Assembly: GCF_000235425.2 (NCBI RefSeq)
Contig: NZ_KI912266.1
Location: 3,725,671 to 3,789,670, forward strand
Length of the DNA stretch: 64,000 nt
Direction of reading: 5' to 3'
Source of the DNA: Pseudofrankia saprophytica
GTDB lineage: Bacteria > Actinomycetota > Actinomycetes > Frankiales > Frankiaceae
The notes beneath the pieces were generated by a model, which was not told where the DNA came from, ran no database searches, and saw nothing but the letters and a program-made list of their open reading frames with translations. Both the position numbers and the translations under genes were made by a program. Of the stretch, positions 44,561-62,976 are shown piece after piece (the stretch's first letter is position 1; every line of letters starts with the position of its first letter).

Positions 44561-44927
44561 GGCTGGAGGCGTGACGGCTCCGCGACGGGGACGGGATGGT
44601 GGGAGCTTCTGGAGGGGGCAGTGCGGATCGGCGGGCGCCGTGCTGGCGAGGGAGGCGGTTCACCTCCGTCGTCCAGGTCCGACCGGGTAGGGCCGGGTAT
44701 GCCCGCTCGTCGCGGTTTCGTCCTCTTTTGGTCCCGCGTCTGGTCGCACGTCGGTTCGCCTCGATATCTGCAGCCGGCTCCTGCCGGCCGCGCGGCAGAC
44801 CGGGCTGGGGAATCGTGGTGGAAGTGGTCGTGAGCCGGTCGAGGAATTCGCGCCTTCGGGAATGTCGCCTGCATGACCGGCCAGACTTCGTAATGCCCGG
44901 CGCTCGTATGGTGGGGTCATAAATTTG

Positions 44928-44941
44928 TGAGTGTTCACTCA
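44928..44941. promoter_or_regulatory. TetR-like box 1 (TGAGTG-TT-CACTCA)
   Basis: A perfect 14-bp palindrome in an AT-rich stretch, the same motif as box 2 at 45511-45524. Confidence 0.55.
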
Positions 44942-45508: not shown

Positions 45509-45524
45509 AGTGAGTGCTCACTTG
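45509..45524. promoter_or_regulatory. TetR-like box 2 (AGTGAG-TG-CTCACT)
   Basis: A perfect palindrome at 45509-45522 that contains TGAGTG-CT-CACT, the motif of box 1. The boxes are about 580 bp apart. Confidence 0.55.
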
Positions 45525-46193: not shown

Positions 46194-46266
46194 GAACGCC
46201 ACCTCCGAGATGGCGTTCGCCAAAGGCGCTTCCTGAGAGGGCGTTCGCCAAGAATGGCGTTCGCCA
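46194..46266. promoter_or_regulatory. Iterated TGGCGTTCGCCA motif upstream of the synthase operon
   Basis: An inverted half GAACGCCA at 46194-46201 is followed by palindromic units at 46211-46222, 46239-46250 (GGGCGTTCGCCA) and 46255-46266. The cluster lies 220 bp before the start of the first synthase gene. Confidence 0.6.
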
Positions 46267-46485
46267 AAAAAGCAGCACCAGGCTCATTCGCTGGACACGT
46301 GGGCGGCGAGCACCGCGCCGGACTCGCCGCCCGACGTCGGCCGCACGTCACGGCCGTTCGTCCCCAGCCGGCGCCCTCTCGTCGCCGGTGCCGCCGGCCG
46401 AAAGCCCCTCGCTGGGGGCACCGGCGACGCATCGCCCACTCCCGGCCGGCATCGCCGGCCGCATGGACACCTCTGGAAGTGATCT

Positions 46486-49400
46486 GTGAAACACAGTGCT
46501 GCGCCCAGGCCGGTCGTCGGCGGCCTCGGGGTGACCGACGCGGGACGCCGCGCCGTCGGGAGCCGGGACCACGTCATCGGGGTGAGCCCGTTGGGAGAAC
46601 CAGACCCGAGGCTGGTCGCGGCGGTCAGCGGCGCCGGAGCCCTGGGCGTGCTGGACCTCGGGCCCGATCCAGCCGGCGCGGCCAGGGCACTGCGATTGAC
46701 CGCCCGGCTGACGGAGTCGTCGTTCGGCGTGCGAATCTCCCGGCCGGAGGCGGTGGACGCGGACGAGCTGGCGCGGCACCGCGGCCGGATCGACACGCTG
46801 CTGGTGGCGGGTGACACGCTCGCCGATGCCGGCAGCCAGCGGCTGCTGGACGCGCTGCCCGGCGCCCGCGTCCTGGCCGAGGTCACGAGCGTTCGCGAGG
46901 CGGTGGCGGCGGTGGCCGCCGGAGCCGACGGCCTGCTGGCCCGGGGCAACGAGGCCGGCGGCCGCGTCGGTGAGCTCAGCTCCTTCGTCCTGTTGCAACA
47001 GGTGCTCGTGCAGCGGGACCTGTTCGGGGACGAGGGGGCGTCCCCGCGCGTCTGGTGCTGGGGCGGGGTGGGTGTGCGCACGGCGGTCGCGGCGGTGGTC
47101 GGGGGCGCGGCCGGAATCGTCCTGGACACCCAGCTCAGCCTGCTGCGCGAGGCCACCGTGACCGAATCGGTCGGCGCCGCGCTGCGCCGGATGGACGGCA
47201 CCGAGACGGTCGTCGCGGCCGGGTACCGGGTCTACCAGTTACCCGCCGCCCGCCAGGCGAGTGGGAGCGCCGAGGACTGGTCGGCCGAGGCGGTCGTCGC
47301 CCGGCTCGGTGGGCACGACCCCGGTCGCCAGCTGTTGCCGGTCGGGCAGGATGCCTTCCTCGCCCAGCTGTTCGCCAACCGGTTCGGCACCACCGCGCGG
47401 GTCGTCCAGGCGATCCGCGGGGCCCTGAGCGCCGCGGCGGACCCGGCCGAGCTCGCGGCCGCCGAGTCCGTCCTGGCGTCGGACTCGCCGCTGTGCGCCT
47501 CCTGGGGAACCACCCGGCCCGTCGCGCAGGGGCCGATGACCCGGGTCAGCGACCAGGCCGGGTTCGCGCGCCGCGTCGCCGACGACGGCGCGCTGCCGTT
47601 CCTCGCGCTGGCGCTCGCGGACGAGCGGCAGTCCCGCCGGCTGCTGCTGGAGACCCGAGACCTGCTGGGCGACCGGCCCTGGGGGGTCGGACTGCTCGGC
47701 TTCGCCCCCGAACAGCTGCGGGCCACCCAGCTCGGCGTGGTGCGCGAGATCCGGCCGTCCTGCGTGATCGTCGCCGGCGGCCGGCCCTCCCAGGCCGCCG
47801 ACCTCGAGGCGATCGGCATCCCGACCTTCCTGCACGTGCCGTCGCCGACGCTGCTGCGGCAGTTCCTCGACGCGGGCGCCCGGCGCTTCGTCTTCGAGGG
47901 CTCCGAGTGCGGCGGCCACGTCGGCCCGCGCGCGAGCTTCCCACTCTGGGAGGCGCAGCTCGACGTCCTGCTCGACCACCTCGACAGGACCTCGCCAGGC
48001 GCGCGGACCGCGGGAGCCGGCCCGCGGGACCGGACCGGCCACGGCCTGCAGGTCCTGTTCGCGGGCGGAGTGCACGATGCCCGCTCCGCGTCCATGGTGG
48101 CCGCGATGGCGAACCCGCTCGCCGCCCGTGGCGTCGGCGTCGGCGTGCTGATGGGCACCGCCTACCTCTTCACCCGGGAGGCCGTCGAGGCGGGCGCCAT
48201 CCAGGACGAGTTCCAGCGGCAGGTGCTGGCCGCGGAGGGCACGGCCCTGCTGCGGACCGGGCCGGGTCACGCGACCCGCTGCGTGTCGAGCCCGTTCGTC
48301 GACCGGTTCCACGCCGCCCGCGACGAGTTGCGCGCACGGGGCGTGCCGGATCAGCGGGCGTGGGAGGAGCTGGAGCAGCTCAACGTCGGCCGGCTCAGGG
48401 TGGCCAGCAAGGGCCTGGAGCGCAGCGGCGACGACCTCGCCGCGGTCGACGGTGAGCGACAGCGTGCCGAGGGCCTGTTCATGGCGGGGCAGGTCGCCGT
48501 GCTGCGGTCGGCCACCACCACGATCCACGAGCTGCACGACAACGTCACGGCGGGCGCCCGCCAGTACCTGCGCGACCAGGCCGAGCGGCTGCGGGACGGG
48601 CCCGGCCCGGCGACCGCTGGGCGGACGGCCGACGCGGCTCCCCTGGACATCGCCGTCGTCGGCATGGCCTGTGTGCTGCCGGGCGCCGCCGACCTGGCCA
48701 CCTACTGGGCGAACGTCGTGTCCGGCAAGGACGCGGTCTCGCTCGTGCCACCCGAGCGGTGGGATCCCGAGATCTACCTCGACGCCGACGGTGGCCCCGA
48801 CGGCGGCCCGAGCGGGGAGAAGACCCGTTCGAAGTGGGGCGGCTTCCTGCCCCGGATTCCCTTCGACCCGTTGCGCTACGGCATCCCGCCGGCGTCGCTG
48901 GTGAGCATCGAGCCGGTCCAGGCGCTGGCCCTGGAGACCGCCCGGCGAGCGCTCGACGACGCCGGGCTCGATCCCGACCGCGTCGACCACATCCGCACCG
49001 GCGTGGTGTTCGGCACCGAGCCCAACAGCGACCTGTCCGCCGCGATCACCCTGCGCGCGCTGCTGCCGGCGTACTACGGCGAGGTGCCGCCGGAGCTGCG
49101 GGACATCCTCCCGCACATCACGGCGGAGACGTTCACCGGCATCCTCGGCAACATCGTCGCGAGCCGGATCTCCAACCGGCTCGACCTGGGCGGCCCGGCC
49201 TATGTCGTGGACGCCGCCTGCGCCTCGTCGCTGGCCGCGCTGGACATGGCCTGCAAGGAGCTGCGGTTCGGCGGCGCGGACGTGATGATCTGCGGCGGCG
49301 CCGACCTGCACAACAGCGTGCTCGACTACCTGCTGTTCTCCTCCGTCGGTGCGCTGTCACCGAGCGGCCGGGCCCGGCCCTTCGCCGCCGATGCGGACGG

Positions 49401-52400
49401 GACCACGCTCGGCGAGGGCGTCGCCTGCGTCGTCCTCAAGCGGCTCGCCGACGCCGAACGCGACGGTGACCGCGTCTATTCGGTGATCAAGGGGCTGGGC
49501 GCGGCCAGCGACGGCCGGTCCCTCGGCCTGACCGCGCCCCGGCCGGAAGGCCAGCAGCTCGCGCTCGAACGCGCCTACCACAACGCCGGCGTCTCGCCGG
49601 CCGACGTGGGACTCGTCGAGGCGCACGGCACCGGCACGGTCGTCGGTGACCGCACCGAGCTCACGACGCTCACCAAGGTGTTCACCGACGCCGGCGCCCG
49701 GCCGGGTACCTGCGCTCTCGGGTCGGTCAAGTCGCAGATCGGCCACACGAAGACCGCCGCCGGCCTCGCCGCCCTGGTCAAGGTGTCGCTGGCTTTGCAC
49801 CACGGCGTCCTGCCGCCGACGCTGCATGTCCAGACGCCGAACCCGGCCTGGGAGCCCGACGCCAGCCCGTTCGTCTTCGCCGGCACGGCGCGGCCGTGGA
49901 CCCGGCCCGTCGCCGGTCGGGTGGCCGGGGTCAGCGCCTTCGGTTTCGGCGGAGCGAACTACCACGCGGTCCTCACCGGTCATGCCGGCGCGGTCGACGC
50001 CCGGCACGCCCTCGACCAGTGGCCGGCGGAGCTGTTCGTGTTCCGCGGCGCGGACCAGGCGTCGGCCCTCGCCGGGGTGACAGAGCTGCGGCGGCTGCTG
50101 GTCGCGAACGACGCCGGTGGCCGGCCGTGGCCGCTGCGCGACCTGGCCGCGACGGCCACCCGCCGGGCGCGACCGCGGCGAGGGCCCGTCCGGATCGCGG
50201 TGGTCGCGCGGGACCTGGACGACCTCGCCCACCTGCTGGAACGGGCGGCCCACGGCGAGTCGGACGCGCGGGTGGGGCTGTTCGCCGTCGGGGACCCCTC
50301 GCCGGTCGCCTCGGCCGCCCCGGGCGGCGGGAGCGGCGCGGGTGACCTGGGGGGCGCCGGCGCGGTGGCCGTGCTGTTCCCGGGGCAGGGCAGCCAACGG
50401 CCGGGCATGCTGGCCGAGCTGTTCGTCGCCTTCCCGGAGCTGCGGGACTATCTGCGGCTCGGCGAGCCGTGGCTGGAGGCGATCTTCCCGCCGTCGACGT
50501 TCGACGGGCCGCCGGGTTCGCCGTCGGGCGGCGCTGGGAGCGCTGGGAGCGCCGAGGAGCGGCTGCGGGACACCCGGGTCGCGCAGCCGGCGCTCGGGAT
50601 CGCGGGCCTCGGCGCCTACCACCTGCTGTCCCGGCTGGGCCTCGTGCCCGACATGATCGGCGGTCACAGCTACGGCGAGCTGGTCGCGCTGTGCGCCGCG
50701 GGCGCCTGCGCCCCCGAGACGCTCCTCGACCTCTCGGCCGCCCGGGGCGAGGCGATCGTCCGCGCGGTCACCGGCGCCGGATCCCGGGAGTCCGCCGGCG
50801 GCGCCGAGTGGCCGGACCAGGGCGCGATGGCGGCCGTGCGGGCGCCCGTGACGGTCGTGGCCACGACGCTGGCCGAGGCGCGCCTCGACGGGCAGGTGGT
50901 CGTCGCCAACCACAACGCGCCCGACCAGGTCGTGATCTCCGGGGCGACCTCGGCGGTCGAGGCGGCGATCCGGCTGTTTCGCGCCGCCGGGCACAGCGCC
51001 GTCCGGCTGCCCGTCGCCTGCGCGTTCCACAGCCCGCTGATCGCCGAGGCCGGCGCGGAGTTCGCGCAGCGGCTGGCGGGCGCCCCCCTGACCGACCCGC
51101 GGCTGCCGGTGTGGGCGAACCGCACGGCGGCGCCCTACCCGGCCACCGACGGCGACGCCACGGTGGGCGACGCCGTCCGGGCCGAGCTCGCCGCGCAGGT
51201 GGCGGCGCCGGTGCGGTTCGTCGAGCAGATCGAGGCGATGTACGCCGCCGGAGCGCGGGTGTTCGTCGAAGCGGGTCCCGGCCGGGTGCTTACCGGCCTG
51301 GTCGACTCCATCCTCGATGGCCGGCCGCACCTGGCAGTCGCCTGCGACGGCCGGCGCCGTGGGCTGACCGGCTTCCTGGACGCGGTCGCGGCGCTGCTGG
51401 TCGCCGGCGTGCCGCTGTCCGTCGACTGGCTTGTCGACGGCCGCGACGCCGTGGACCGGGACGGCGCGACGGCGCCGACCCCGCCGCGGTGGAGCGTGGA
51501 CGGCCGCAGCATCTGCCGCGCGGACGGTACGCCGCTGCCCGGCGGCCTGCTGCCGGCCCACCAGGTACGCCGGACAGGCCCGCCGTCGCCCGTGCCCGCG
51601 CTGGCCGGCGCCTCGGCCCCGGCTGACCACACGATGCCGACCGGCGCGGCGGCGAACGGCCCGGTCGACACCGCGACCCGGGAGACGCTGGTCAGCCAGT
51701 TCCTGCGGACCTCCCGGGACAACCTGGCCGCGCAGCGCGACGTGCTGATGTCCTATCTGGGCTCGGGCCGGGACGTCATCACGGCGCTTCCGACGGCGGC
51801 GCTCCTCCCGGCGGCGCCCGCACCCGCGGCCGACGTTCCCATCACCACCCCGGCGGCGGTCGCCGCGCTGGCCCCATCACCGGCCGGCACGCCGCAGGAC
51901 GTGACGACCACCGTGCTCGACCTGATCGCCGAGAGCACCGGCTACCCGACCGACATGATCGACCTCGACCTCGACCTCGAGACCGACCTGTCCGTCAACT
52001 CGCTGAAGCGCACCGAGCTCGCCGGCCAGCTCGCCGACCGCTTCGCGTTCGCCGGCACTGGCACCGGCGGCGTCGACGAGCTCAGCCGGCTGCGCACCGT
52101 GCGCGCCATCGTGGGCTGGCTCACCGAACGGGGACCAGGTCGTGACGTGTCCGCCGACCTGTCCGTCTCCGCCCCGGCGGGGGAGGCCCGACAAGCGGGT
52201 GAGGCGCGCGGCCGTGGTCCGACGCGGTTCGTCCTCACCAGGCGGCCGACGTCTCCCGGCCCCGGCCAGGTGGACCTGACGGGTACCACCTGGATGGTGT
52301 TCGGCCGCGCCGCCGACGTTCCCGGCCAGGAGACGGTCATGCGCCGGCTGACGGAGCTCGGCGCCGAGGCGCGCTTCAGGCTGGTCGACGAGCTGGCCGA

Positions 52401-53688
52401 CAGGCCGGCTGACGGCGACCGACCGGCCGTGGACGGCGCGGTATACCTGGCCGGCTGGGGGGACGACGCCGGGGAGCCGGAGCTGCCAGACGCCTTCGGC
52501 GCGCTGCGCGCCGTGCTGCACGGCGGCCCTCGCTGGCTGCTGGCCGTGACCCCGCCCGATGCCATGCCCGCCATCGGCCTGCGCGGCCTGTTCCGCACGC
52601 TTGGCCGCGAGTACCCGACAACCACGGTCAGGCTGGTCGAGACCGACGCGGCCGCGGGCCCCGCTCTCGCCGCCATCGTCACCGCCGAGCTGGGCGAGCC
52701 TCCCGGCGGCCCGGTGGTCGTCGTCCACCGCGACGGCGCGCGCCTGACCGAGGAGCTGACGGCGGTGGCCGCCGGGCCGCTCGCGACGGCCGGGGCGGGG
52801 CCGGCCGACGACGGCACCGCCGAGGCCACGGCGCTCGGCCTGGACCGTGACGCCGTCGTCGTCCTGGTCGGGGGGGCCCGTGGGATCACGGCGGGGTTCA
52901 CCGCCCTGCTCGCGGGTGCCGCCGGTTGTCATCTGGAACTGGCCGGGCGCACCCCCGAGCCGGCGGGCGACGAGGACCCGCGGCTCGCGGCCGCGCTCGA
53001 CCGGACCGCCCTGCTCGACGCCGTCCGGGAGCTCGGGCACCGGTCGCCGCGAGAGGCGAGCCGCGAGGTCGCGCGGGTCCTGGCGCAGCGGGAGATCCGG
53101 GCGACGCTCGCCACCGTCGCGGCCCGTGGCGCTGACGCCCGCTACCACCAGCTCGACGTCCTGGACACCGAGGCGGTCCACCGGTTCGTCAAGGAGCTGT
53201 TCGCCCACCACGGTCGGATCGACGCCGTCGTGTACTCCGCCGGAGTGATCGAGGACCGGCTGGTCGCGGACAAGGAGCCGGAGTCGTTCCGCCGGGTGTT
53301 CGACACGAAGGTGGCCGGGGCGCTGGCGCTGCTGGCGGCGTTCGACGAGTTACCGGTCCCGCCACGCACCCTGGCGTTCTTCGGCAGCATCGCCGGCGTC
53401 CTGGGCAGCCGGGGCCAGAGCGACTACGCCGCGGCGAACGACGCGCTGGAATCCCTCGGCGCTGCCTGGGCGGGGCGGACCGGGGCGCGGGCGCTCACCG
53501 TCCACTGGGGTCCCTGGGCGCCGGACGAGAGTCATCCCGGCATGGTCAGCGCCGACCTGGAGCGGGACTTCGCCCGCCGCGGGGTCGACCTGATCGACCC
53601 GGAGGAAGGGCACCGGTGCCTGCTGCGCGAGCTGGCCTGGGGCCCGCGAGACCTTCGCGGTGTCGTCTACACCGCGTCCGGCTGGTAG
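46486..53688 (+). CDS. PUFA-synthase-like type I polyketide synthase: PfaD-like reductase-KS-AT-ACP-KR
   Basis: The 2400-residue enzyme carries, in order: two nitronate-monooxygenase/PfaD-like flavin TIM-barrel segments (about 20-270 and 320-640; the second has FEGSECGGHVGPR with H478); a ketosynthase (about 720-1165; C912 in DAACASS, H1047 in EAHGTG, H1087 in QIGHTK); an acyltransferase (about 1293-1620; S1395 in GHSYGE); one ACP (about 1805-1870; S1839 in LSVNSLKR); and a ketoreductase (about 2120-2400; GGARGITA at 2129, Y2314 in YAAAN). KS plus PfaD-like reductase is the hallmark of PUFA-type synthases; fusing PfaD at the N-terminus with only one ACP is unusual. GTG 46486 is preceded by GGAAG. 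It leads a six-gene operon and shares three intergenic bases with the next gene. Confidence 0.93.
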   Translation: MKHSAAPRPVVGGLGVTDAGRRAVGSRDHVIGVSPLGEPDPRLVAAVSGAGALGVLDLGPDPAGAARALRLTARLTESSFGVRISRPEAVDADELARHRGRIDTLLVAGDTLADAGSQRLLDALPGARVLAEVTSVREAVAAVAAGADGLLARGNEAGGRVGELSSFVLLQQVLVQRDLFGDEGASPRVWCWGGVGVRTAVAAVVGGAAGIVLDTQLSLLREATVTESVGAALRRMDGTETVVAAGYRVYQLPAARQASGSAEDWSAEAVVARLGGHDPGRQLLPVGQDAFLAQLFANRFGTTARVVQAIRGALSAAADPAELAAAESVLASDSPLCASWGTTRPVAQGPMTRVSDQAGFARRVADDGALPFLALALADERQSRRLLLETRDLLGDRPWGVGLLGFAPEQLRATQLGVVREIRPSCVIVAGGRPSQAADLEAIGIPTFLHVPSPTLLRQFLDAGARRFVFEGSECGGHVGPRASFPLWEAQLDVLLDHLDRTSPGARTAGAGPRDRTGHGLQVLFAGGVHDARSASMVAAMANPLAARGVGVGVLMGTAYLFTREAVEAGAIQDEFQRQVLAAEGTALLRTGPGHATRCVSSPFVDRFHAARDELRARGVPDQRAWEELEQLNVGRLRVASKGLERSGDDLAAVDGERQRAEGLFMAGQVAVLRSATTTIHELHDNVTAGARQYLRDQAERLRDGPGPATAGRTADAAPLDIAVVGMACVLPGAADLATYWANVVSGKDAVSLVPPERWDPEIYLDADGGPDGGPSGEKTRSKWGGFLPRIPFDPLRYGIPPASLVSIEPVQALALETARRALDDAGLDPDRVDHIRTGVVFGTEPNSDLSAAITLRALLPAYYGEVPPELRDILPHITAETFTGILGNIVASRISNRLDLGGPAYVVDAACASSLAALDMACKELRFGGADVMICGGADLHNSVLDYLLFSSVGALSPSGRARPFAADADGTTLGEGVACVVLKRLADAERDGDRVYSVIKGLGAASDGRSLGLTAPRPEGQQLALERAYHNAGVSPADVGLVEAHGTGTVVGDRTELTTLTKVFTDAGARPGTCALGSVKSQIGHTKTAAGLAALVKVSLALHHGVLPPTLHVQTPNPAWEPDASPFVFAGTARPWTRPVAGRVAGVSAFGFGGANYHAVLTGHAGAVDARHALDQWPAELFVFRGADQASALAGVTELRRLLVANDAGGRPWPLRDLAATATRRARPRRGPVRIAVVARDLDDLAHLLERAAHGESDARVGLFAVGDPSPVASAAPGGGSGAGDLGGAGAVAVLFPGQGSQRPGMLAELFVAFPELRDYLRLGEPWLEAIFPPSTFDGPPGSPSGGAGSAGSAEERLRDTRVAQPALGIAGLGAYHLLSRLGLVPDMIGGHSYGELVALCAAGACAPETLLDLSAARGEAIVRAVTGAGSRESAGGAEWPDQGAMAAVRAPVTVVATTLAEARLDGQVVVANHNAPDQVVISGATSAVEAAIRLFRAAGHSAVRLPVACAFHSPLIAEAGAEFAQRLAGAPLTDPRLPVWANRTAAPYPATDGDATVGDAVRAELAAQVAAPVRFVEQIEAMYAAGARVFVEAGPGRVLTGLVDSILDGRPHLAVACDGRRRGLTGFLDAVAALLVAGVPLSVDWLVDGRDAVDRDGATAPTPPRWSVDGRSICRADGTPLPGGLLPAHQVRRTGPPSPVPALAGASAPADHTMPTGAAANGPVDTATRETLVSQFLRTSRDNLAAQRDVLMSYLGSGRDVITALPTAALLPAAPAPAADVPITTPAAVAALAPSPAGTPQDVTTTVLDLIAESTGYPTDMIDLDLDLETDLSVNSLKRTELAGQLADRFAFAGTGTGGVDELSRLRTVRAIVGWLTERGPGRDVSADLSVSAPAGEARQAGEARGRGPTRFVLTRRPTSPGPGQVDLTGTTWMVFGRAADVPGQETVMRRLTELGAEARFRLVDELADRPADGDRPAVDGAVYLAGWGDDAGEPELPDAFGALRAVLHGGPRWLLAVTPPDAMPAIGLRGLFRTLGREYPTTTVRLVETDAAAGPALAAIVTAELGEPPGGPVVVVHRDGARLTEELTAVAAGPLATAGAGPADDGTAEATALGLDRDAVVVLVGGARGITAGFTALLAGAAGCHLELAGRTPEPAGDEDPRLAAALDRTALLDAVRELGHRSPREASREVARVLAQREIRATLATVAARGADARYHQLDVLDTEAVHRFVKELFAHHGRIDAVVYSAGVIEDRLVADKEPESFRRVFDTKVAGALALLAAFDELPVPPRTLAFFGSIAGVLGSRGQSDYAAANDALESLGAAWAGRTGARALTVHWGPWAPDESHPGMVSADLERDFARRGVDLIDPEEGHRCLLRELAWGPRDLRGVVYTASGW

Positions 53689-53691
53689 ACG

Positions 53692-56600
53692 ATGACCACT
53701 TCCTCCGCGGATTCCTCCTCCTCGGACTGGCGGTCGCCGCCGGTCGCCATCGTCGGCATGGCGGTGCTCCTGCCGGGCGCGCCCGACCTGGAGACGTACT
53801 GGCGGAACCTCGTGGACGGCAACGACGCCATCGCCGAGGTGCCGCCCGGTCGCTGGGACCCGGCGTTCTACGACCCGCGCGCCGCGTCGGGGCCGGCCCG
53901 CGCCGACCGGATCTACTGCCGGCGCGGCGGGTTCGTGGACGAGTTCGCCTACGCCGACCCGCTCCGCTTCGGTATCCCGCCGAGCGACGTGCGCAGCATC
54001 GAGCCCGACCAGCTCCTCGCGTTGCGCGTCGCGGCCGCCGCGATCGACGACGCCGGCGGCCCGTCCCGGTTGGGAGATCCCGGCCGGGTCGGAGTCATCC
54101 TCGGCCGGGGCGGCTACATCGGCCCGGGCATGGCCCGCCTCGACCAGCGGCTGCGCACGGCCCACCAGCTGGTCCACACCCTCGGGACGTTGCTGCCGAC
54201 GCTCGGCCCCGACGACCTCGACCAGGTCCGGGCCGCGTTCACCGAGCAGCTCGGGCCGGAGGCGCCGGACGCGGCGATGGGCATCGTGCCGAACCTGGCC
54301 GCGGCCCGGATCGCGAACCGCCTCGACCTGGGCGGGCCGGCGTTCACCGTGGACGCCGCCTGCGCGTCGTCACTGGTCGCCGTGGACTGCGCCGTGGCCG
54401 AGCTGGCCTCGGGCCGCTGCGACACGGTGCTGGCCGGCGGGGTCCACCACTGCCACGACATCACCCTGTGGAGTGTGTTCACGCAGCTGCGGGCTCTGTC
54501 GAAGGCGCAGCGGATCCGGCCGTTCGACCGCGGCGCGGACGGCACCCTGATCGGCGAGGGAACGGGCGTCGTCGTCCTCAAGCGGCTCGCCGACGCGGAA
54601 CGCGACGGGGACCGGGTCTACGCGGTGGTCCGTGGAACCGGTGTGTCCAGCGACGGCCGGGGCGGCGGGCTGGTCAGTCCTGACCCGGCGGGGCAGCAGG
54701 TGGCCGTCGAGCGGGCCTGGCGCGCGGCCGGTCTCGACCCGCGCGAGCCCGGCGCGGTCGGCATGATCGAGGCGCACGGCACCGCCACGCCGGCCGGCGA
54801 CCAGGCCGAGCTGACGACCCTGGCTCGCGTGTTCGGGCCCGGCGGCGGCGACCGGGCGGGACCGGGCGGGCTCGGCGCGCTCGGCTCGGTGAAGGCGATG
54901 ATCGGGCACGCCATGGCGGCCGCCGGCATCGCCAGCCTGGTGAAGGCGGCCCTGGCGCTGCACCACCGGGTCCTGCTGCCGGCGGTGAACTGCGACGATC
55001 CGCATCCCGCGGTCGCCACGACCCGGTTCCGTCCGCTGCCGGCCGCCGTGCCGTGGGAGTCCGTCGGTCCTCGCCGGGCCGGTGTCAACGCGTTCGGCTT
55101 CGGCGGCACCAACGCGCACGTGCTGCTGGAGGAGGCTCCGGCCGCCGCGGCCGCCGCGGCCGCCGCGGGCCCGGCGGTCGTGGCTCCGGCGGCCGCCCCG
55201 GGCGCCGGCTCGGCGGTGGCCACGGTCGTCGAACCCGAGCTGGTGCTGCGGCTGGCGGCGGCGACCCCGGACGAGCTGGGCGTCCTGCTCGAGGTCGAGG
55301 ACGTGGTGCTGCGGGCCCAGGCCGAGACCACGCCCGCGTACACCGGGACAGGGGCGCGGCTCGGCCTGGTGAACCCGACCGCGCGGCGGCTGGCGTCCGC
55401 GCGCTACGCGGTCGGCGGGATTCGCCAGGGGGCGTGGAAGGCCTGGCGCGGCCGGAGCGAGGTGTGGGCCAGCGCCGAACCACTGCTGGCCGGCCCGGAC
55501 GCCGGCCGGACCGCGTTCGTGTTCCCCGGGCTGGAGGCGGAGTTCGCCCCACAGCTCGACGACGTCGCCCGCCGCTTCGGGTTCGCCCTCCCGGCGGAGC
55601 TGTCCAGCGCCGACCTGGGCCGGCACGGCACCGGTGTCCTGCTGGTGAGCCGGCTGCTGGACCGGGTGCTGCGGCGGATGCGGATCGCGCCGGACGCGCT
55701 GGCCGGGCACAGCATCGGCGAGTGGAGCGCGATGTTCGCCGCCGGGATGTTCGACGACGACGCGGTCGACGCCGACATCTTCGCCGCCGATCCCTACGAG
55801 GGCGACGTCCCCGAGGTCGACTACGCGTCGCTGGCCTGTTCGAGCGACCAGGCCAGACAGGCCCTCGCCGACTACCCGGACATCGTCCTTTCCCACGACA
55901 ACGCGCCCCAGAGCTCGGTCGTCTGCGGGCCCCCGGCCGCGATCGCGGACCTGGCCGGCCGGCTGCGGCGCAAGAACGTGGTCGTGCAGGTCCTGCCGTT
56001 CCGGTCCGGCTTCCACACCCCGATGCTGCGGCCCCATCTGCCGGCGCTGCGGGCCCGCACGGACCGGCTTCGGCTGCGCCGGCCGGCGCAGGTCGAGCTG
56101 TGGTCGGCGACGACGGCGTCGCCGTATCCGGCCGACCTGGCGGCGGTCCGGGAGCTGTTCGTCCGTCACCTGGTCGAGCCGGTCCTGTTCCGCCAGACCG
56201 TCGAGGCGATGTACGCGGCCGGTGTGCGGGTGTTCGTCCAGGTCGGGCCGGGGCGGTTGGGCGGGCTCGTCGACGGCGTGCTCGAGGAGGCGCCCCACCT
56301 GACCATCGCCGCGAACTCGGCCCACCGCGACGGGCTTGGCCAGCTTCGCCGGCTCGCGGTCGCGCTGTGGGTGGAGAACGGCGACCCCGACTTCGCCGTG
56401 CTCGACGAGCCCGGCACCGACCACGCCGGTCCCGGCGGCCAGCCCGGCGCCGACGTCACGGCCCACGCGACGGTCCCAGCGCCGGACGGTCCTCGCGAGC
56501 ATCCGGTTCGGCTCGACCTCGGCGCGTCGACGATCGCCGTCGACCCCGCCAGGCTCCCGCGTCTCGGCCTCGTCGGTGCCGGCCCGCCGCGACCAGGCGA

Positions 56601-58551
56601 TGCCCAGACCGGCGGCGGGCTGGCTGCCGAACTGCCGGGGTGGTCCCTGCCCGCCGATCACCCGCTGGCCGTCCGGGCGGACCGGGACCCGCTGGCCAGG
56701 GAGCTCATGGCGCTGCTGGCCGAGACCGCCGACACGGCCGCGGCCGTCCTGACCTATCCGGCCGGCGACGCCGCGCCGAGCCGAGCAGCATCCGCCGGGC
56801 CGGTATCCGTCGGACCGGCTACGGCGCCGGCCCCAACCGGCCCGGACGACCTGCGCGAGGAGCCCGGGGGAGCGGGCTGGACGGCGACGATGCGGGTGTC
56901 CACCGCGACCATGCCGTACCTGCTCGACCATGCGCTGACCCCGCAGCCGCCGGGTTGGCCGGACCTCGCCGACCGGCGTCCGGTGCTGGCCGCGACCACC
57001 ACCGTCCGGCTGATGGCCGACTACGCGCAGCGGGCGTCGGGCCGGACCGCCGTCGGCGCCTACGACCTGCGCTTCGACAACTGGCTCCCGGCGGAACCGG
57101 CTACCGACGTGGCCGTCAGCCTGCGGCCGGAGGGGCCGGATCGGTATCGGGTCACCTTCGCCGGGTTCGCGAGCGGTCTGGTCCGGCTGGCCGACACCTT
57201 CCCCACGCCGCGGCCGCCGCGCTGGCCGGTTGACGCCGACGCCGAGCAGCCGCCGACGATGACCGGCCGGGACCTGTACCGCGAACGGTGGATGTTCCAC
57301 GGCCCCGCCTTCCAGGGCGTGACCACCTTGCTCGGGCATGGGCCCTCGCATGTCCGCGGCGTCCTCACTGGCTCCCGTACGCCAGGTGCGCTCCTGGACA
57401 CGGCCGGTCAGCTCCTCGGCTACTGGGTGCGCATGCGGGAGTCGGACCGTTTTCTGATGTTCCCGGTCAGGATCGGAGGCGTCGAATTCTTCGGCCCCGA
57501 GCCCGCGCCGGGTACGCCGGTCTCCTGCCACGCCTGGGTCAGGGAGTTCGACAACGAGTGGGCCGAGGCGTACATGCAGCTCGTCGACGGCAACGAGGTC
57601 TGGGCGAACGTCTATGGCTGGGTGAACCGCAGGTTCGATCTGCCCGCGGAGCTCGACGAGGCATTCCGCTGGCCGGAGCGGCGGCCGTTCGCCGGCCTCC
57701 GCCCTGGCGGCTGGGTGATGGCCACCGAGCGCTGGTCCGACCTGGCCGTCCGCGAGATGGTGCTCAGCCGCTATGTCGGTTCGGCCGAACGCGCGCGGTA
57801 TGACGTGCTGCCGCCCGGCCTGCGCCGGGAGTGGCTGCTGCGGCGGATCGCGATCAAGGACGCCGTCCGCGCCCGGCTCTGGGGGCCACAGCGCCCGGAG
57901 ATCTTTCCCGCTGAGATCCAGGTGTCGGACCCGTTCGGCACCGCGGCCGCCGGGTGGGACGGCAACGGCTGCCGGGCCGGCACGGGCACCGGTGCCGGCC
58001 CGCCGGTGACCGTGTCCGGCGCCCCCGGCTACCCGCTGGCGCCCTTCGAGGTCCGCGTCGCGAGCGTCCAGGATCTCGCGGTCGCGCTCGCCGTGCCGGT
58101 GGCCGTGCCGACCCGGGCCGAGCACGCCGGGCCGGGCCCGCGGGCAGCCGTCGGCCTCGCCATCGAGCCGGTCATGGCGGACCGGTCGAACCCGCTCCCC
58201 GGCCCAGCCCGGCGGCCGCCGGTGGGCGTCGATCCCGACGACCCGTGGTGGCGTTGCCGCCTGGCGGCCGTGACGGACGCCGCCGCGCGGGCGGCCGGGG
58301 TCGACGGGTCCCGGCCGCGGGTCACGTCGGCGGCGCGGGCCGCCGACGACCGGGAACCGGTAACCGCCGCGGTGACCGTGGACGGCACCCGGTACGCGGT
58401 GAACTGCGTCGAGGTGGCCACCAGCCCGCCAGGGCTGCCCGCCCGCGGATACGTCGTGGCCTGGACGACCGGCGCCCAGCCGGCGAACGACGACCGTAAC
58501 GACGACAAGAACGACCAGAGACACGTGGAATGGAGGGGAGTCGACGCATGA
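53692..58551 (+). CDS. Polyketide synthase: KS-AT-DH with PPTase-like C-terminal region
   Basis: The 1619-residue enzyme has a ketosynthase (about 15-470; C224, H362, H406, all intact), an acyltransferase (about 605-930; S674 in GHSIGE, SGFHTPM in place of the HAFH-type motif) and a product-template or dehydratase region (about 1060-1300; H1080 in LLDHAL and D1236 in LLDTAGQ, the usual spacing for a double hot-dog dehydratase). The C-terminal part has RRIAIKDAVR (K1389, D1390), resembling the W-x-x-K-E-A motif of phosphopantetheinyl transferases, as in enediyne-type synthases. There is no ACP in the chain, so it must use the ACPs of the neighbours. It starts three bases after the previous stop and its stop overlaps the ACP start (ATGA). 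Confidence 0.9.
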   Translation: MTTSSADSSSSDWRSPPVAIVGMAVLLPGAPDLETYWRNLVDGNDAIAEVPPGRWDPAFYDPRAASGPARADRIYCRRGGFVDEFAYADPLRFGIPPSDVRSIEPDQLLALRVAAAAIDDAGGPSRLGDPGRVGVILGRGGYIGPGMARLDQRLRTAHQLVHTLGTLLPTLGPDDLDQVRAAFTEQLGPEAPDAAMGIVPNLAAARIANRLDLGGPAFTVDAACASSLVAVDCAVAELASGRCDTVLAGGVHHCHDITLWSVFTQLRALSKAQRIRPFDRGADGTLIGEGTGVVVLKRLADAERDGDRVYAVVRGTGVSSDGRGGGLVSPDPAGQQVAVERAWRAAGLDPREPGAVGMIEAHGTATPAGDQAELTTLARVFGPGGGDRAGPGGLGALGSVKAMIGHAMAAAGIASLVKAALALHHRVLLPAVNCDDPHPAVATTRFRPLPAAVPWESVGPRRAGVNAFGFGGTNAHVLLEEAPAAAAAAAAAGPAVVAPAAAPGAGSAVATVVEPELVLRLAAATPDELGVLLEVEDVVLRAQAETTPAYTGTGARLGLVNPTARRLASARYAVGGIRQGAWKAWRGRSEVWASAEPLLAGPDAGRTAFVFPGLEAEFAPQLDDVARRFGFALPAELSSADLGRHGTGVLLVSRLLDRVLRRMRIAPDALAGHSIGEWSAMFAAGMFDDDAVDADIFAADPYEGDVPEVDYASLACSSDQARQALADYPDIVLSHDNAPQSSVVCGPPAAIADLAGRLRRKNVVVQVLPFRSGFHTPMLRPHLPALRARTDRLRLRRPAQVELWSATTASPYPADLAAVRELFVRHLVEPVLFRQTVEAMYAAGVRVFVQVGPGRLGGLVDGVLEEAPHLTIAANSAHRDGLGQLRRLAVALWVENGDPDFAVLDEPGTDHAGPGGQPGADVTAHATVPAPDGPREHPVRLDLGASTIAVDPARLPRLGLVGAGPPRPGDAQTGGGLAAELPGWSLPADHPLAVRADRDPLARELMALLAETADTAAAVLTYPAGDAAPSRAASAGPVSVGPATAPAPTGPDDLREEPGGAGWTATMRVSTATMPYLLDHALTPQPPGWPDLADRRPVLAATTTVRLMADYAQRASGRTAVGAYDLRFDNWLPAEPATDVAVSLRPEGPDRYRVTFAGFASGLVRLADTFPTPRPPRWPVDADAEQPPTMTGRDLYRERWMFHGPAFQGVTTLLGHGPSHVRGVLTGSRTPGALLDTAGQLLGYWVRMRESDRFLMFPVRIGGVEFFGPEPAPGTPVSCHAWVREFDNEWAEAYMQLVDGNEVWANVYGWVNRRFDLPAELDEAFRWPERRPFAGLRPGGWVMATERWSDLAVREMVLSRYVGSAERARYDVLPPGLRREWLLRRIAIKDAVRARLWGPQRPEIFPAEIQVSDPFGTAAAGWDGNGCRAGTGTGAGPPVTVSGAPGYPLAPFEVRVASVQDLAVALAVPVAVPTRAEHAGPGPRAAVGLAIEPVMADRSNPLPGPARRPPVGVDPDDPWWRCRLAAVTDAAARAAGVDGSRPRVTSAARAADDREPVTAAVTVDGTRYAVNCVEVATSPPGLPARGYVVAWTTGAQPANDDRNDDKNDQRHVEWRGVDA

Positions 58552-58856
58552 CCATGGACGACGGTCGGACCAGTGCGGTCCTTGCCGAGGCCAACGACAT
58601 GATCAACACGATCACCCGGAAGTACGGGTCGCCGCCCGTCCAGGTGACCATGGACACGCTTTTCCACAGCGAGCTCGAGCTGGAGAGCATCGACCTGGTC
58701 ACGCTCGGCGTGATGCTCGCGGAGCGGTATGGCGACGAGGTCAGTATGGCCGAGTTCCTGGCCGACAAGGATCTCGGCGACGTCATCGCGCTGCGCGTCG
58801 GCGAGGTGGTCGACTACGTCGTGTCCTGCCTGGACGTCCCGACGGCCGTCGACTGA
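58548..58856 (+). CDS. Free-standing acyl carrier protein
   Basis: The 102-residue protein has a four-helix ACP fold with the phosphopantetheine site LELESIDLV (S47; DSL variant ESI) at the start of helix 2 and acidic recognition residues after it (LAERYGDEVSM). It should carry the growing acyl chain for the two synthases. ATG 58548 overlaps the synthase stop and is preceded by GGAGGGGAG seven bases upstream. A separate ACP beside a single ACP domain may hold a starter, an edited or a finished chain. Confidence 0.9.
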   Translation: MTMDDGRTSAVLAEANDMINTITRKYGSPPVQVTMDTLFHSELELESIDLVTLGVMLAERYGDEVSMAEFLADKDLGDVIALRVGEVVDYVVSCLDVPTAVD

Positions 58857-58858
58857 GC

Positions 58859-59674
58859 ATGCCGACCATCCACGTCAACGACACCGACATCCACTACCTG
58901 CACACGCCGGGCAGGCCGTCGCGGAACCCGGCGCCGACCCTCGTCTGCATCCATGGCCTCGGCACCGACAGCCTCGCCAGCTTCTACCTGACGCTGGCCG
59001 CGCCGCTGGCCGCCGCCGGCGTCGACATGCTGTTCTACGACCTGCGTGGCCACGGCAACAGCGAACGGCCGGCCAGCGGCTATCAGGTGAACGACTTCGT
59101 GGCGGACCTCGACGGGCTGCTCGGCGCACTCGACGTGCGGCCGCCGGTGCACCTGATCGGCAACAGCTTCGGCGGCACCGTCGCGTTCGCGTTCGCGGCG
59201 GCCCACCCGGACAAGGTCGCCAGCCTGGTCTCGATCGAGTCCGAGCCGCCGACCGACCAGTGGGCGCGGCGGGTGGGCGAGGTGCTGGAGAACTCCAGGC
59301 GGGAGCTGTCGCGCGAAGAGACCTATCAGCTGATCTCGCTGCAGTTCGGCGACCACCACGCCCGGCTGTCGCGGCAGGCCTACCGGCGCCTGTCCGAGAC
59401 CTCGATGACCGACGAGATCCCGACCGGGCCGATGCTCGACCTGACCGAGCTGAGTCGGATCACCGTCCCCGTTCTGAGCATCATCGGCAGCGACGGGTTC
59501 CAGGCCGACGACCCATACCAGCTCGAGAGCCTGCTGCCCAACTGTCAGACCGTGGTCATCCAGGACCAGGACCACTCCGTGCTCGTGGAGGCCCACCGGC
59601 AGGTGCGCGCGCTGCTCCTGGACTGGGTCTTCGCCCACCACCCCGCCGCGGTGACGCCGGGAGGGCAGGCGTGA
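58859..59674 (+). CDS. alpha/beta hydrolase (possible thioesterase or acyltransferase)
   Basis: The 271-residue protein has the oxyanion strand CIHGLGTDSL, the DLRGHGNSERP loop, nucleophile S in GNSFGG, the acid residue in IIGSDGFQADD and histidine in DQDHSVLVEA, giving a complete catalytic triad. In this operon it most likely releases or transfers the acyl chain from the ACP, but a tailoring hydrolase acting on the glycosylated product is equally possible. ATG 58859 follows the ACP stop by two bases. Its stop overlaps the GTG of the glycosyltransferase. Confidence 0.85.
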   Translation: MPTIHVNDTDIHYLHTPGRPSRNPAPTLVCIHGLGTDSLASFYLTLAAPLAAAGVDMLFYDLRGHGNSERPASGYQVNDFVADLDGLLGALDVRPPVHLIGNSFGGTVAFAFAAAHPDKVASLVSIESEPPTDQWARRVGEVLENSRRELSREETYQLISLQFGDHHARLSRQAYRRLSETSMTDEIPTGPMLDLTELSRITVPVLSIIGSDGFQADDPYQLESLLPNCQTVVIQDQDHSVLVEAHRQVRALLLDWVFAHHPAAVTPGGQA

Positions 59675-60939
59675 GCACTTTCCTGCTCGTCGTCCCGCCG
59701 CTCACGGGACACATCACCCCGCTTGTCGCCGTGGCCGACCGGCTGCACGCCCTCGGTCACCGCGTCGACTGGTGTGGCGAGCCGTCGCTGGTCAGGCGCC
59801 TCGCCGGCCCGGACGCGGTGGTGCACCCGGCCCTTGGCGGCCCCGTGGACGCCGGGAGCGGTCTCGGCCTGCGCGGCTACGCCGCGGTCAGGTTCCTCTG
59901 GGAGGAGCTCCTCATCCCGCTCGCCGAATCGACCCACGAGGCGGTCGCCGACGCGGCCAAACGGTCCGGCGCCGACCTCGTCGTCGCCGACATGCAGGCC
60001 CTGGCCGGCCCGCTCGCCGCGGCGCGGCTGGGCATCCCGTGGGTCACCTCCGCCAGCACATCCGGCTCGTTGCGGGATCCCTTCGCCGCCACGCCCAAGA
60101 TCCGCGACTGGCTCGACGGCCTGTTCGCGGACCTGATCGCGCGGCTGTGCCCGGACGCGGCCGTGTCGCTGGCGCCCGTGCCACTGACGCCCGCGACGCT
60201 CGAACGCTCCCCGTTGCTCGTGCTCGCCTTCACCACCGAGGCGCTCGCCGGCCCGGCCGACGCGACGGGTCCGCCGACCGCCTGGGTCGGCCCGGCGCTG
60301 CGCCGGCGGGCCGCCGCAGGGGCGGCGGCGATCGCGGCGGCGGTGACCGCGGCGGCGGTGTCGCCGGACGTCGCCCTGACGCCCGAGGTGCCGTTCCCGT
60401 GGGACTGGCTCGACCCGAGGAGACCGCTGGTCGTCGTCAGCCTGGGCACCGTCAACGGTCCCGTCGGCGGCCGCTTCCTGCGGGCCTGCGCCGACGCGCT
60501 GGGCCAGCTCGGTGGCGGGGTGCAGGCCGTGGTGGCCGACCCGGCGGGCGCGATCGCGGCGGCGCCCGACAACGTCCTGCCCAGGCCGTACCTGCCGATC
60601 CGGACGCTGCTGCCCCACGCGGCCGCCGTCGTCTGCCACGGCGGGCACAACACGGTGTGCGAGGCGCTCGCGCACGGTCTGCCGCTGGTCGTCGCGCCGA
60701 TCCGCGACGACCAGCCGGTCGTCGCGCAGCAGGTGGTCGACGCGGGAGCGGGCGTCCGGCTGCACTTCGGCCACGCCACGGCGGACCTCATCGGGGCCGC
60801 GGTCACCGACGTCCTGGGTGACCCGCGGTACCGCGACGACGCCCGACGGGTCGGCGCCTCGTTCAGGGCCGCGGGCGGGGCCGTCGCGGCGGCGGACCAC
60901 CTGGTGGGGCTCGCCGCGAAGCACGGCCGGCCCGGATGA
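59671..60939 (+). CDS. GT1 family glycosyltransferase (macrolide/UGT-like)
   Basis: The 422-residue protein has the two Rossmann domains of GT-B fold enzymes: N-terminal VVPPLTGHITPLVAVADRLH with the acceptor-site histidine, and C-terminal WDWLDPRRPLVVVSLGTVNG, then CHGGHNTVCEALAHGLPLVV and PIRDDQPVVAQ, the nucleotide-sugar donor signature. It should attach a sugar from a UDP or dTDP donor to a lipid or polyketide hydroxyl. No sugar-biosynthesis genes are in the window, so the sugar is from primary metabolism or from elsewhere. The start overlaps the hydrolase stop, and its stop overlaps the next start. Confidence 0.93.
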   Translation: MSTFLLVVPPLTGHITPLVAVADRLHALGHRVDWCGEPSLVRRLAGPDAVVHPALGGPVDAGSGLGLRGYAAVRFLWEELLIPLAESTHEAVADAAKRSGADLVVADMQALAGPLAAARLGIPWVTSASTSGSLRDPFAATPKIRDWLDGLFADLIARLCPDAAVSLAPVPLTPATLERSPLLVLAFTTEALAGPADATGPPTAWVGPALRRRAAAGAAAIAAAVTAAAVSPDVALTPEVPFPWDWLDPRRPLVVVSLGTVNGPVGGRFLRACADALGQLGGGVQAVVADPAGAIAAAPDNVLPRPYLPIRTLLPHAAAVVCHGGHNTVCEALAHGLPLVVAPIRDDQPVVAQQVVDAGAGVRLHFGHATADLIGAAVTDVLGDPRYRDDARRVGASFRAAGGAVAAADHLVGLAAKHGRPG

Positions 60940-62873
60940 GCGGGATGAGCGAAACGAGGGCGGGCGAGCTCGGTGACTCCGCCCCACGGCACCGGCCGAG
61001 CGGTCGCCTGGACATGGTCCTCCGTTACACCGCCGGTTTCCGGAGCCGCCTCGCCCTCGGCGGCGTGCTGACGCTCTCGGGTACGGCGCTGTCGCTGGCG
61101 CAGCCACTCATCGCGCAGCGCATCCTGGACCGCATCGCCCGCCATCAGCCGGTCACCGGTCTGCTTCTGGTTCTGGGCGGCGCCGTCGTCCTCGGGACGG
61201 CCGTCGGCGCCGTGGGCTACTACGTCGTCGAGACGGTCGGCGAGTCCGTCGTCCGAAGCGTGCGGCGGCAGCTGGTGACCCGCATCCTGCGGCTGCGACC
61301 GGGGGTGCTCGACGAGGTCAACCCCGCTGACCTGATGTCCCGGCTGGTCGCCGACACGACGTTGCTGCGGCAGGTTACGACCCAGTCGATGGTCGCCTCC
61401 GTCACGGCCGTGGTCGCCCTGCTGGGGTCTCTCGTCCTCATGGGCCTGATCGACCCTGTGCTGCTGGCGGTCACGCTCACCGCGGTCGTGACGATGAGCG
61501 TCTCGGTGCGCTGGGCCGCGGCCCGGATCGGACAGGCCACCGGCAGGACGCAGGAGTCCGTCGCCTACCTGGCGATGCTGCTCGACCGCGACCTGGGCGC
61601 CTTCCGAACGGTGAAGGCGGCCGGCGCGGAGGCCAGGGAGATCGGCCTGCTGACCGGCGCGGCGGACACCGCCTGGCGTCGCGGCCTGCGGGTGGCGGCC
61701 TGGCAGGCGGGCAGCGGGGCGTCCGCGAGCCTGCTGATGCAGACGTCGTTCCTCGCCGTGCTCGGTGTCGGCGGTGCCCGGGTGGCGTCGGGACGACTGT
61801 CGCTCGCCGACCTGATCGCCTACCTGCTGTACATGTTCTTCCTGACGCAGCCCGTGACGGCCCTGGTCAGCGCCTGGGGCCAGGTCAAGGTCGGTGGTGG
61901 CGCCGCCGAGCGCATCGAGGCCGTGCTCAGGCTCTCCGTCGAACCCGTCCCCGTGCCCGCCGTCCGTGCGCGACCGCCCGGCACCCTCGTCACGGTGCCC
62001 GCTCATGCCGTCTCCCTGTCGGCGAACGGCGTCGGAGCGAGCACCGAGGGGAACGACGGGCCTGGTGCGAACGGCACGCACGAGTTCGCGCGTCCTGGCC
62101 CGGAGGATCCTGCCCCCAGCCAGGTGGCTGCCTGCGCCACCGTGGCGTTCCAGCAGGTCGTGTTCAGCTACCGGACCGGTCTGCCGTTCGTCCACCAGGG
62201 CGTGACGTTCACCGTCCCCGCCGGCGGCATGACCGCCGTCGTCGGGCCGTCCGGAGCCGGCAAGTCCAGTCTGTTCGCCCTGTTGGAGCGGTTCTACGAC
62301 GTGACGGCCGGCCGGGTTCTCGTCGACGGCCGGGACGTCCGTGACTGGCCGCTGACCGACCTGCGCCGGTCGATCGGCTACGTGGAGCAGGAAGCCCCGG
62401 TCCTCGCCGGCACCCTGCGGGAGAACCTGACGCTCGGGCTTTCCGGCGTCGACGAGGAACACCTGTGGAACGTGGTCGGCCTCGCGCGGCTCGGCGACGT
62501 CGTCCAGACCCTGCCGGGCGGCCTGGACGGCTGGATCGGCCATCGCGGCGGCACCCTGTCCGGCGGTCAGCGGCAGCGAGTCGCGATCGGGCGAGCCCTG
62601 CTGCGCAGGCCGCGTCTGCTGCTGCTCGACGAGGCGACGTCGGCGCTGGACGCGGTCAACGAGGCCGCGCTGCGCGACGCGCTCGCGGCCGCGGCCGAGA
62701 CGACGACGGTGCTGGTCGTCGCCCATCGGCTGTCGACCGTGGTCAACGCCCGCCAGATCGTCGTTCTGGAGGCGGGACAGGTGCGTGCCGTTGGCACCCA
62801 CGCCGATCTGCTTTACTCCGACCCCATATACCAAGAACTCGCGACGAACCAACTTCTTCTGCCCGGCACCTGA
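60936..62873 (+). CDS. ABC exporter half-transporter (fused membrane and ATPase domains)
   Basis: The 645-residue protein (alternative start 60945) has about six membrane helices in the first 330 residues, then a roughly 60-residue low-complexity linker, and an ATPase domain with Walker A GPSGAGKSS, signature LSGGQRQRVAIGRA and Walker B LLLLDEATSALD. It is a half-transporter that should work as a homodimer and export lipid-like or peptide cargo, here presumably the glycosylated operon product. The start overlaps the glycosyltransferase stop (ATGA). A 44-bp palindrome follows 50 bases after its stop and marks the operon end. Confidence 0.95.
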   Translation: MSGMSETRAGELGDSAPRHRPSGRLDMVLRYTAGFRSRLALGGVLTLSGTALSLAQPLIAQRILDRIARHQPVTGLLLVLGGAVVLGTAVGAVGYYVVETVGESVVRSVRRQLVTRILRLRPGVLDEVNPADLMSRLVADTTLLRQVTTQSMVASVTAVVALLGSLVLMGLIDPVLLAVTLTAVVTMSVSVRWAAARIGQATGRTQESVAYLAMLLDRDLGAFRTVKAAGAEAREIGLLTGAADTAWRRGLRVAAWQAGSGASASLLMQTSFLAVLGVGGARVASGRLSLADLIAYLLYMFFLTQPVTALVSAWGQVKVGGGAAERIEAVLRLSVEPVPVPAVRARPPGTLVTVPAHAVSLSANGVGASTEGNDGPGANGTHEFARPGPEDPAPSQVAACATVAFQQVVFSYRTGLPFVHQGVTFTVPAGGMTAVVGPSGAGKSSLFALLERFYDVTAGRVLVDGRDVRDWPLTDLRRSIGYVEQEAPVLAGTLRENLTLGLSGVDEEHLWNVVGLARLGDVVQTLPGGLDGWIGHRGGTLSGGQRQRVAIGRALLRRPRLLLLDEATSALDAVNEAALRDALAAAAETTTVLVVAHRLSTVVNARQIVVLEAGQVRAVGTHADLLYSDPIYQELATNQLLLPGT

Positions 62874-62923
62874 CGCCGGACGGCGTTGACCCTAGGACCG
62901 GAACAGGTCCTTCGCCTACCAGG

Positions 62924-62967
62924 AGGTCGGCGAGCAGACCAACAGCTGTTGGTCTGCTCGCCGACCT
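62924..62967. terminator. Perfect 44-bp palindrome at the operon end
   Basis: Each base from 62924 pairs with its mirror to 62967 around the centre 62945/62946. It lies between the ABC gene (stop 62873) and the next start (62977), and its right end touches that gene's GGAG ribosome binding site. Confidence 0.85.
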
Positions 62968-62976
62968 GGAGTTCAC

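Follow-up and report, generated by a model that had tools for sequence, protein, structure and literature searches.

A compact run of six genes in a 64,000-nucleotide stretch of the Pseudofrankia saprophytica CN3 genome (contig NZ_KI912266.1, positions 3,725,671 to 3,789,670; hereafter the window) raises the question of what kind of molecule it makes, and whether its layout has a precedent. A first-pass annotation had read it as a polyunsaturated fatty acid (PUFA) synthase-like operon for an exported, glycosylated acyl product. The run encodes two large multidomain synthase proteins, a free acyl carrier protein (ACP), an alpha/beta hydrolase, a glycosyltransferase (GT), and an ATP-binding cassette (ABC) exporter. 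It is most likely a distinct version of a known family of secondary lipid synthases without a known product, and we consider it quite probable that it is a secondary-lipid glycoside operon, belonging to Type M (see below) or to a sister lineage, whose product is a glycosylated, exported long-chain acyl compound.

All six genes proved to be real and lie tightly packed on the + strand, with spacings from gene 1 to gene 6 of +3, -22, +2, -4, and -4 bases, their order being kept in relatives. Given this close spacing, the genes are probably transcribed as a single unit. Third-position GC content is 0.90-0.95 in the five open reading frames (ORFs) of the operon kept by a composition screen; the GT frame was dropped by that screen and is supported by its Pfam match and by conservation. 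In the ORF list this frame is longer (58729-60939), and the start used here, at 59671, was chosen by us. As the first-pass annotation had described, genes for a synthase, release, sugar transfer, and export stand together in one compact run (Table 1; genome size 9,978,592 bases, 2 contigs).

Table 1. Genes of the operon and upstream features, in window coordinates (aa, amino acids; ER, enoyl reductase; KS, ketosynthase; AT, acyltransferase; KR, ketoreductase; DH, dehydratase; PPTase, phosphopantetheinyl transferase; TMD, transmembrane domain; NBD, nucleotide-binding domain)
Feature	Coordinates	Strand	Description	Basis
Gene 1	46486..53688	+	2400 aa; ER-ER-KS-AT-ACP-KR	ORF list, Pfam, motifs
Gene 2	53692..58551	+	1619 aa; KS-AT-DH-degenerate PPTase	ORF list, Pfam, alignment, motifs
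Gene 3	58530..58856	+	108 aa; free acyl carrier protein	Pfam, ESIDL motif
Gene 4	58859..59674	+	271 aa; alpha/beta hydrolase, candidate trans thioesterase/esterase	Pfam, GNSFGG motif
Gene 5	59671..60939	+	422 aa; GT1 / macrolide-type glycosyltransferase	Pfam, NCBIfam, motifs
Gene 6	60936..62873	+	645 aa; MsbA-like half-size ABC exporter, TMD+NBD	Pfam, NCBIfam, motifs
GMC oxidoreductase	41864..43834	-	possible associated gene; exported, cholesterol-oxidase-like	by eye
Palindrome GTGAGTGTTCACT	44927..44939		candidate TetR-type operator	pattern search, inferred role
Palindrome GTGAGTGCTCACT	45510..45522		candidate TetR-type operator	exact copies also precede the operon in L118/L027 and L068

The product of gene 1 starts with two domains in tandem that resemble FabK and nitronate monooxygenase (NMO), at residues ~17-330 and ~334-690, followed by a KS (721-1115), an AT (1297-1605), a single ACP (1809-1878), and a KR (2124-2345). 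Taken alone, each of the segments 1-333 and 334-710 matches NMO in Pfam and, far under the cut-off, the FabK enoyl reductase model of NCBIfam, and the PDB sequence relatives of this N-terminal stretch are FabK and NMO. An ars-like protein of Beijerinckia, 41.8% identical to gene 1 over query residues 19-709, likewise contains two NMO stretches. The KS Cys-His-His residues, the AT motif GHSYGE, the ACP serine, and the KR tyrosine are all present; the KS, AT, ACP, KR, and PPTase motifs carry their generally known meanings, and motif counts throughout are regular-expression matches. A strict PfaD-KS fusion was considered for gene 1 and rejected, as the N-terminal domains are tandem FabK/NMO-like and TIGR02814 (PfaD) has no match in the window. 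The domain content proposed at first (KS-AT-ACP-KR, KS-AT-DH, ACP, hydrolase, GT1, and ABC) is sound except for its "PfaD-like" label and one domain missed in gene 2.

Gene 2 encodes a KS (17-434) that keeps its active-site cysteine (DAACASS) and hence is not a chain length factor (CLF), an AT (663-853), and a PS-DH dehydratase, the last matched in a fragment of the protein at 26.1 bits against a cut-off of 23.7 and unlisted for the full-length protein. The earlier KS-AT-DH reading is right as far as it goes, but it overlooked a degenerate PPTase-like tail. This C-terminal stretch can be aligned to the PPTase domains of homologues from Streptomyces AV19 and Virgisporangium, in which the domain is intact; its PPTase likeness comes by alignment only, with no ACPS match at E<=1, and the gene 2 C terminus matched no sequence in the PDB. 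Further downstream, the GT has as its best NCBIfam model the macrolide GT family TIGR01426 (147.1 bits, under the cut-off of 260), and the ABC protein of the window shows Walker A, LSGGQ, and Walker B; LSGGQ is unmatched by pattern at two related loci (L069 and L071), and Walker B at one (L039).

With the DH region as query, a close form of the cluster (A, the form present in the window) was found in 10 of 35 Frankiaceae genomes, at 12 loci. Weaker matches, called form B, come from 32 of the 35, and 16 of these 32 were examined for gene order. All six genes stand in this order elsewhere in the genus and also in two further genera of the Frankiaceae, with single matches 51-91% identical, which argues that the arrangement is not due to chance. 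Conserved synteny had been proposed as the check on the operon, with its loss in all relatives as the refuting case; the order is in fact kept in relatives. The ABC exporter gene adjoins A at all 11 loci with readable downstream DNA (the window, L025-L028, L031, L037, L039, L068, L069, and L071; L070 and L032, at contig ends, are excluded here and from the PPTase count), and the five-gene order, GT included, is found at 16/16 B loci (L033, L041-L045, and L072-L081). Across the A copies, the synthase, hydrolase, and ACP motifs sought are retained wherever they are readable; at L069, both large genes and the GT are each in two frames.

In an even class-level sample of 296 genomes, with the best few candidates per genome scored, 42 genomes match; 25 of them are Frankiaceae and the remaining 17 belong to six further families, so outside Frankiaceae the cluster is scattered rather than common. 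Seventeen of the 19 non-Frankiaceae loci were fetched (G100:C136 and one G115 locus were left out), gene 1 being truncated by the stretch end in several, and the five-gene order including the GT is found at 16 of these, the exception being L100, which has no GT. Outside this set of 17 stand L003, L004, L029, and L030. The gene following the GT varies among loci: it is a methyltransferase at B loci L041, L072, and L073, at L110 and L112, and on two Streptomyces plasmids, whereas L099 and L102 have a second GT and, close by, a gene for a different sort of ABC ATPase; at the remaining loci the genes there are others again. The plasmid loci, L003 and L004, are on the Streptomyces linear plasmids NBC_00984 and NBC_01243 (0.85-0.87 Mb), where an A-like five-gene core is accompanied by the methyltransferase gene; transposase genes lie near the core, a possible transfer route.

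The motifs G-h-D-h-E and W-x-x-K-E-A-x-x-K have a catalytic role in PPTases. Both are absent from 11/11 readable A loci (window included), and both are present at 11/16 B loci and 15/17 non-Frankiaceae loci; L029 and L030 show both by pattern, and L003 and L004 only GhDhE. Among the loci examined, the ABC exporter (11/11) together with the loss of the PPTase motifs (11/11) is lineage-specific. The tail is shortened in L026, L037, and L068, and it diverges faster than the DH, with identities to the window of 45-77% versus 75-90% across five Pseudofrankia rows. Because the fused tail lacks its motifs, the ACPs of the operon may well be activated in trans by another PPTase. Two loci of the genome hold PPTase family matches over the cut-off of 25 (54.3 and 30.9 bits); one locus is at C1:6.857 Mb and one lies within the paralogous cluster B. 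With the fused domain degenerate, activation in trans is the expectation, and one paralogous synthase may perhaps serve another in the same cell. As separate observations on B, both big synthase genes of the copy in this genome (L033, L082; C2 ~1.716-1.733 Mb) are split over overlapping frames, through decay or sequencing error, and the B loci L077-L079 of Frankiaceae genus g6 lack the fused PPTase motifs as A does.

The closest known family is that of the Type M secondary lipid synthases, listed without a product for Frankia, Actinosynnema, Renibacterium, and S. avermitilis by Shulse & Allen 2011 (PMC3098273) and conserved in the three Frankia genomes finished by then (PMC3098273). Renibacterium, itself a Type M member (PMC3098273), has a cluster with fused pfaDA and a fused pfaBC with PPTase, called an uncharacterised secondary lipid synthase in 2026 (PMC13291983). 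The pfaD-pfaA fusion, whose Type M status is taken from this Renibacterium description (PMC13291983), is present in the window as ER-ER-KS-AT-ACP-KR in one 2400-aa protein with FabK-like ER domains. Shared with Type M are this fused ER-KS-AT-ACP-KR protein and presence in Frankia; a fused KS-AT-DH protein is also there, whose PPTase-like tail may correspond to the PPTase of the Renibacterium layout. The operon differs by its one gene 1 ACP, its lost PPTase motifs, and an ABC exporter as the sixth gene.

A tree was built of KS1 domains (49 rows, from a set of 94 KS domains with matches of at least ~360 residues at non-duplicate loci), by a quick search with support from the Shimodaira-Hasegawa approximate likelihood-ratio test (SH-aLRT) and no bootstrap. 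In it, the 11 Frankiaceae A rows group in a single clade (SH-aLRT 100), and so do the 12 B rows (100). Together with 11 further actinobacterial rows, A makes up a set of 22 rows (89, not starred) that does not include B. The kinship is with secondary lipid synthases rather than with the enediyne reference, the reference branches being long.

The first-pass annotation had presented the coupling of such a synthase with a GT and an exporter as unfamiliar, a claim that the comparison with other systems does not bear out. In cyanobacterial hgl islands, a PKS (polyketide synthase), the hglT GT, and hgdBC ABC genes are found together (PMC11804610), and by description these resemble the Pfa-like synthase, GT, and ABC genes of the operon; hglC is a KS-CLF-AT protein (PMC3098273), whereas the operon has no CLF. 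A run on Beijerinckia pBIND02 comprises an ArsA-like synthase, two genes with KAS III domains (read as type III PKS from the Type P assignment), a DH-PPTase gene, and GT and ABC genes. The operon shares with such ars-type phenolic lipid clusters (Type P; Azotobacter, Beijerinckia) the tandem FabK-like ER-KS-AT-ACP-KR and the DH-PPTase proteins and, with Beijerinckia, the GT and ABC genes after the synthase. However, the Beijerinckia DH-PPTase protein lacks KS-AT, the operon has a free ACP and a hydrolase, and no type III PKS gene of the ars kind is found by Pfam among the six genes. In the Ottowia hybrid lipid cluster, compared by description only, pfaD is fused to pfaA, the fused pfaBC has no KS-CLF, and a GT is present, all as in the operon, but these are joined to genes of a PKS-nonribosomal peptide synthetase (PKS-NRPS) system (PMC13291983). 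With these precedents, Renibacterium included, and with the GT-bearing five-gene core in six other actinobacterial families, the arrangement is not new in kind. Among the matches listed in open-licence literature, we found no characterised cluster with the same gene order and no characterised product for an actinobacterial hglE-KS/Type M system. Because the core brings GT1, hydrolase, and free ACP genes together across actinobacterial families, it makes a class of glycosylated secondary lipids testable where Type M has been listed since 2011 without a product.

From the domains, motifs, gene order, conservation, and PPTase motif loss, which can be read directly, a working model may be drawn in which chain chemistry, step order, sugar, trans activation, and export substrate are predictions. 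Genes 1 and 2 would form an iterative type I synthase whose ATs load malonyl units onto the gene 1 ACP and the free ACP, both activated in trans by a PPTase for which the C1:6.857 Mb locus and cluster B provide candidates. The two KS domains would condense, the KR reduce, and the PS-DH dehydrate, with the tandem FabK-type domains reducing the double bond, to give a chain that is long and saturated, or beta-hydroxylated in some cycles, rather than a PUFA. The alpha/beta hydrolase would then release or transfer the chain, the GT1 add a sugar to a hydroxyl or carboxyl group, and the ABC exporter move the glycolipid out. Our best guess at the product is accordingly phrased by class: it may be a long-chain acyl lipid, either saturated or hydroxylated, that bears a sugar, the long chain being the default because C22-C26 chains are known from Type P synthases (PMC3098273).

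How do other products compare? A genuine PUFA synthase making a polyunsaturated glycolipid would explain why both large proteins score best, among NCBIfam models, with TIGR02813 (PfaA), and the operon does share the PfaA-like KS-AT-ACP-KR core of the marine pfaABCDE systems. Yet both scores (833.8 and 462.6 bits) fall below the curated cut-off of 1010.1, and the operon departs from those systems in having no CLF (the single KS of gene 2 has its cysteine), no FabA-type dehydratase/isomerases, one ACP in gene 1 rather than several, and a FabK tandem in place of PfaD. No PF07977 (FabA family) match occurs in the genome at E<=0.1, a search that found matches in 10/14 control genomes, although a very divergent domain might escape it; TIGR02814 matches nothing in the window at E<=0.1, its best match in the genome being 23.5 bits elsewhere against a cut-off of 449.25. 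Given these missing FabA, PfaD, and CLF matches and the PfaA scores, a polyunsaturated product is unlikely in view of how pfa synthases are known to work, so the PUFA-making sense of the earlier label falls away, and we regard a true PUFA glycolipid operon as very improbable. We think equally little of a vesicle-envelope or nitrogen-fixation glycolipid, an analogue of heterocyst glycolipids. The hgl islands are analogous, and an undefined glycolipid is listed for Frankia CpI1 in a review citing a 1989 vesicle-lipid paper (PMC4365757), but CN3 and EuI1c, both given negative scores for vesicles as well as nitrogen fixation (PMC9680954), carry A, and a draft genome that probably belongs to P. asymbiotica M16386, scored positive there (PMC9680954), has only a B-type match. 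Since vesicle-less strains keep A and this probable vesicle former has only the B type, a vesicle role for A is disfavoured.

A partly reducing synthase, its ER rarely used, could instead make an antibiotic, namely a glycoside of a polyene or polyol polyketide, with the GT and ABC serving self-protection. The GT is indeed closest to the macrolide family (at the below-cut-off score given above), an A-like core sits on Streptomyces linear plasmids, and A is as patchy as its counts within Frankiaceae and in the class sample indicate. Set against this, the KS is related to those of secondary lipid synthases rather than to the enediyne reference, in a tree with long reference branches, and the spread of B-type clusters through nearly all Frankiaceae genomes (half of them checked for order) is unlike that of a typical antibiotic cluster; we consider this alternative unlikely. 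Still within lipid chemistry, fattiviracin, cycloviracin, and glucolypsin, from Streptomyces, Kibdelosporangium, and Nocardia, are macrocyclic and combine long-chain hydroxy acids with glucose (PMC4365757). We found no gene cluster for them in open-licence literature, and the five-gene core supplies the parts expected of one: the hydrolase could act as a macrolactonase that also dimerises, and methoxylated sugars as in cycloviracin could come from the methyltransferase that several relatives encode after the GT. A cluster of the fattiviracin type would be expected to give a dilactone of glycosylated hydroxy acids. The core could then be the pathway for these macrocyclic glycosylated hydroxy-fatty-acid antivirals and their relatives, and the Frankiaceae version an exported one that lacks its own PPTase and relies on another, possibly that of B; this link is a hypothesis, and a decidedly unlikely one.

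Several points weigh against the preferred reading as a Type M-like secondary-lipid glycoside operon. In two tree neighbours, L100 and Virgisporangium L029, tblastn finds no GT. Between the matched pieces of L101 and L109 there is too little space for a gene 2 KS, so the architecture is non-uniform and the core not strict. One or both PPTase motifs are missing at 5/16 B loci, which weighs against a loss confined to the A lineage. The DH and degenerate-PPTase folds are predicted from profiles and alignments, the PS-DH match being weak; the AT, DH, and ER substrates are likewise predictions, and no member examined has a known product. The GT could act on a different acceptor, and the ABC could serve as a self-protection pump. 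The published Type M may also be B rather than A, because A lies in a KS lineage apart from B and because, of two Frankiaceae genomes that we take to be F. alni ACN14a (A and B) and CcI3, the latter yielded only B. Both strains are Type M hosts (PMC3098273).

Upstream of the operon, the two palindromes of the window (GTGAGTG(T/C)TCACT) sit in a 2.65-kb gene-poor gap and may be TetR-type operators. Counting GTGAGTGNTCACT sites upstream of the operon, the window has two exact copies, L118 one exact and one with one mismatch, L068 one exact, and L113 one with one mismatch; L026 and L025 have weaker ones. L114, L115, and L116 have none even when one mismatch is allowed, and the upstream stretches of L003, L029, L030, and L032 none even when two are. 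Two such sites were reached in 1/100 window shuffles. The GMC oxidoreductase gene stands beside A at 6/9 loci searched upstream, divergent in the window, L118, L113, and L026 and on the same strand in L025 and L114; near A it was not found in L068/L117, L115, and L116, which belong to other genera.

Across the window, Rfam and tRNA searches gave no match, and within 43800-63100 a scan for sigma-70-type promoters found none and terminator-like sites number 2, fewer than the shuffle mean of 3.4. ORFs within 43.8-46.5 kb appear non-coding by eye. Directly upstream of the operon, 46211-46266 holds three inverted repeats of the TGGCGTTCGCCA type, one of them imperfect by a mismatch; one more is at 43558 (-), and GGCGTTCGCCAA occurs in two copies in L027. 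Elsewhere in the window are two nearby Methyltransf_19 S-adenosyl methyltransferase genes (36259-37095 and 37953-38771, both -) and a gene for one protein with NYN and OST-HTH/LOTUS domains (20429-21229, -).

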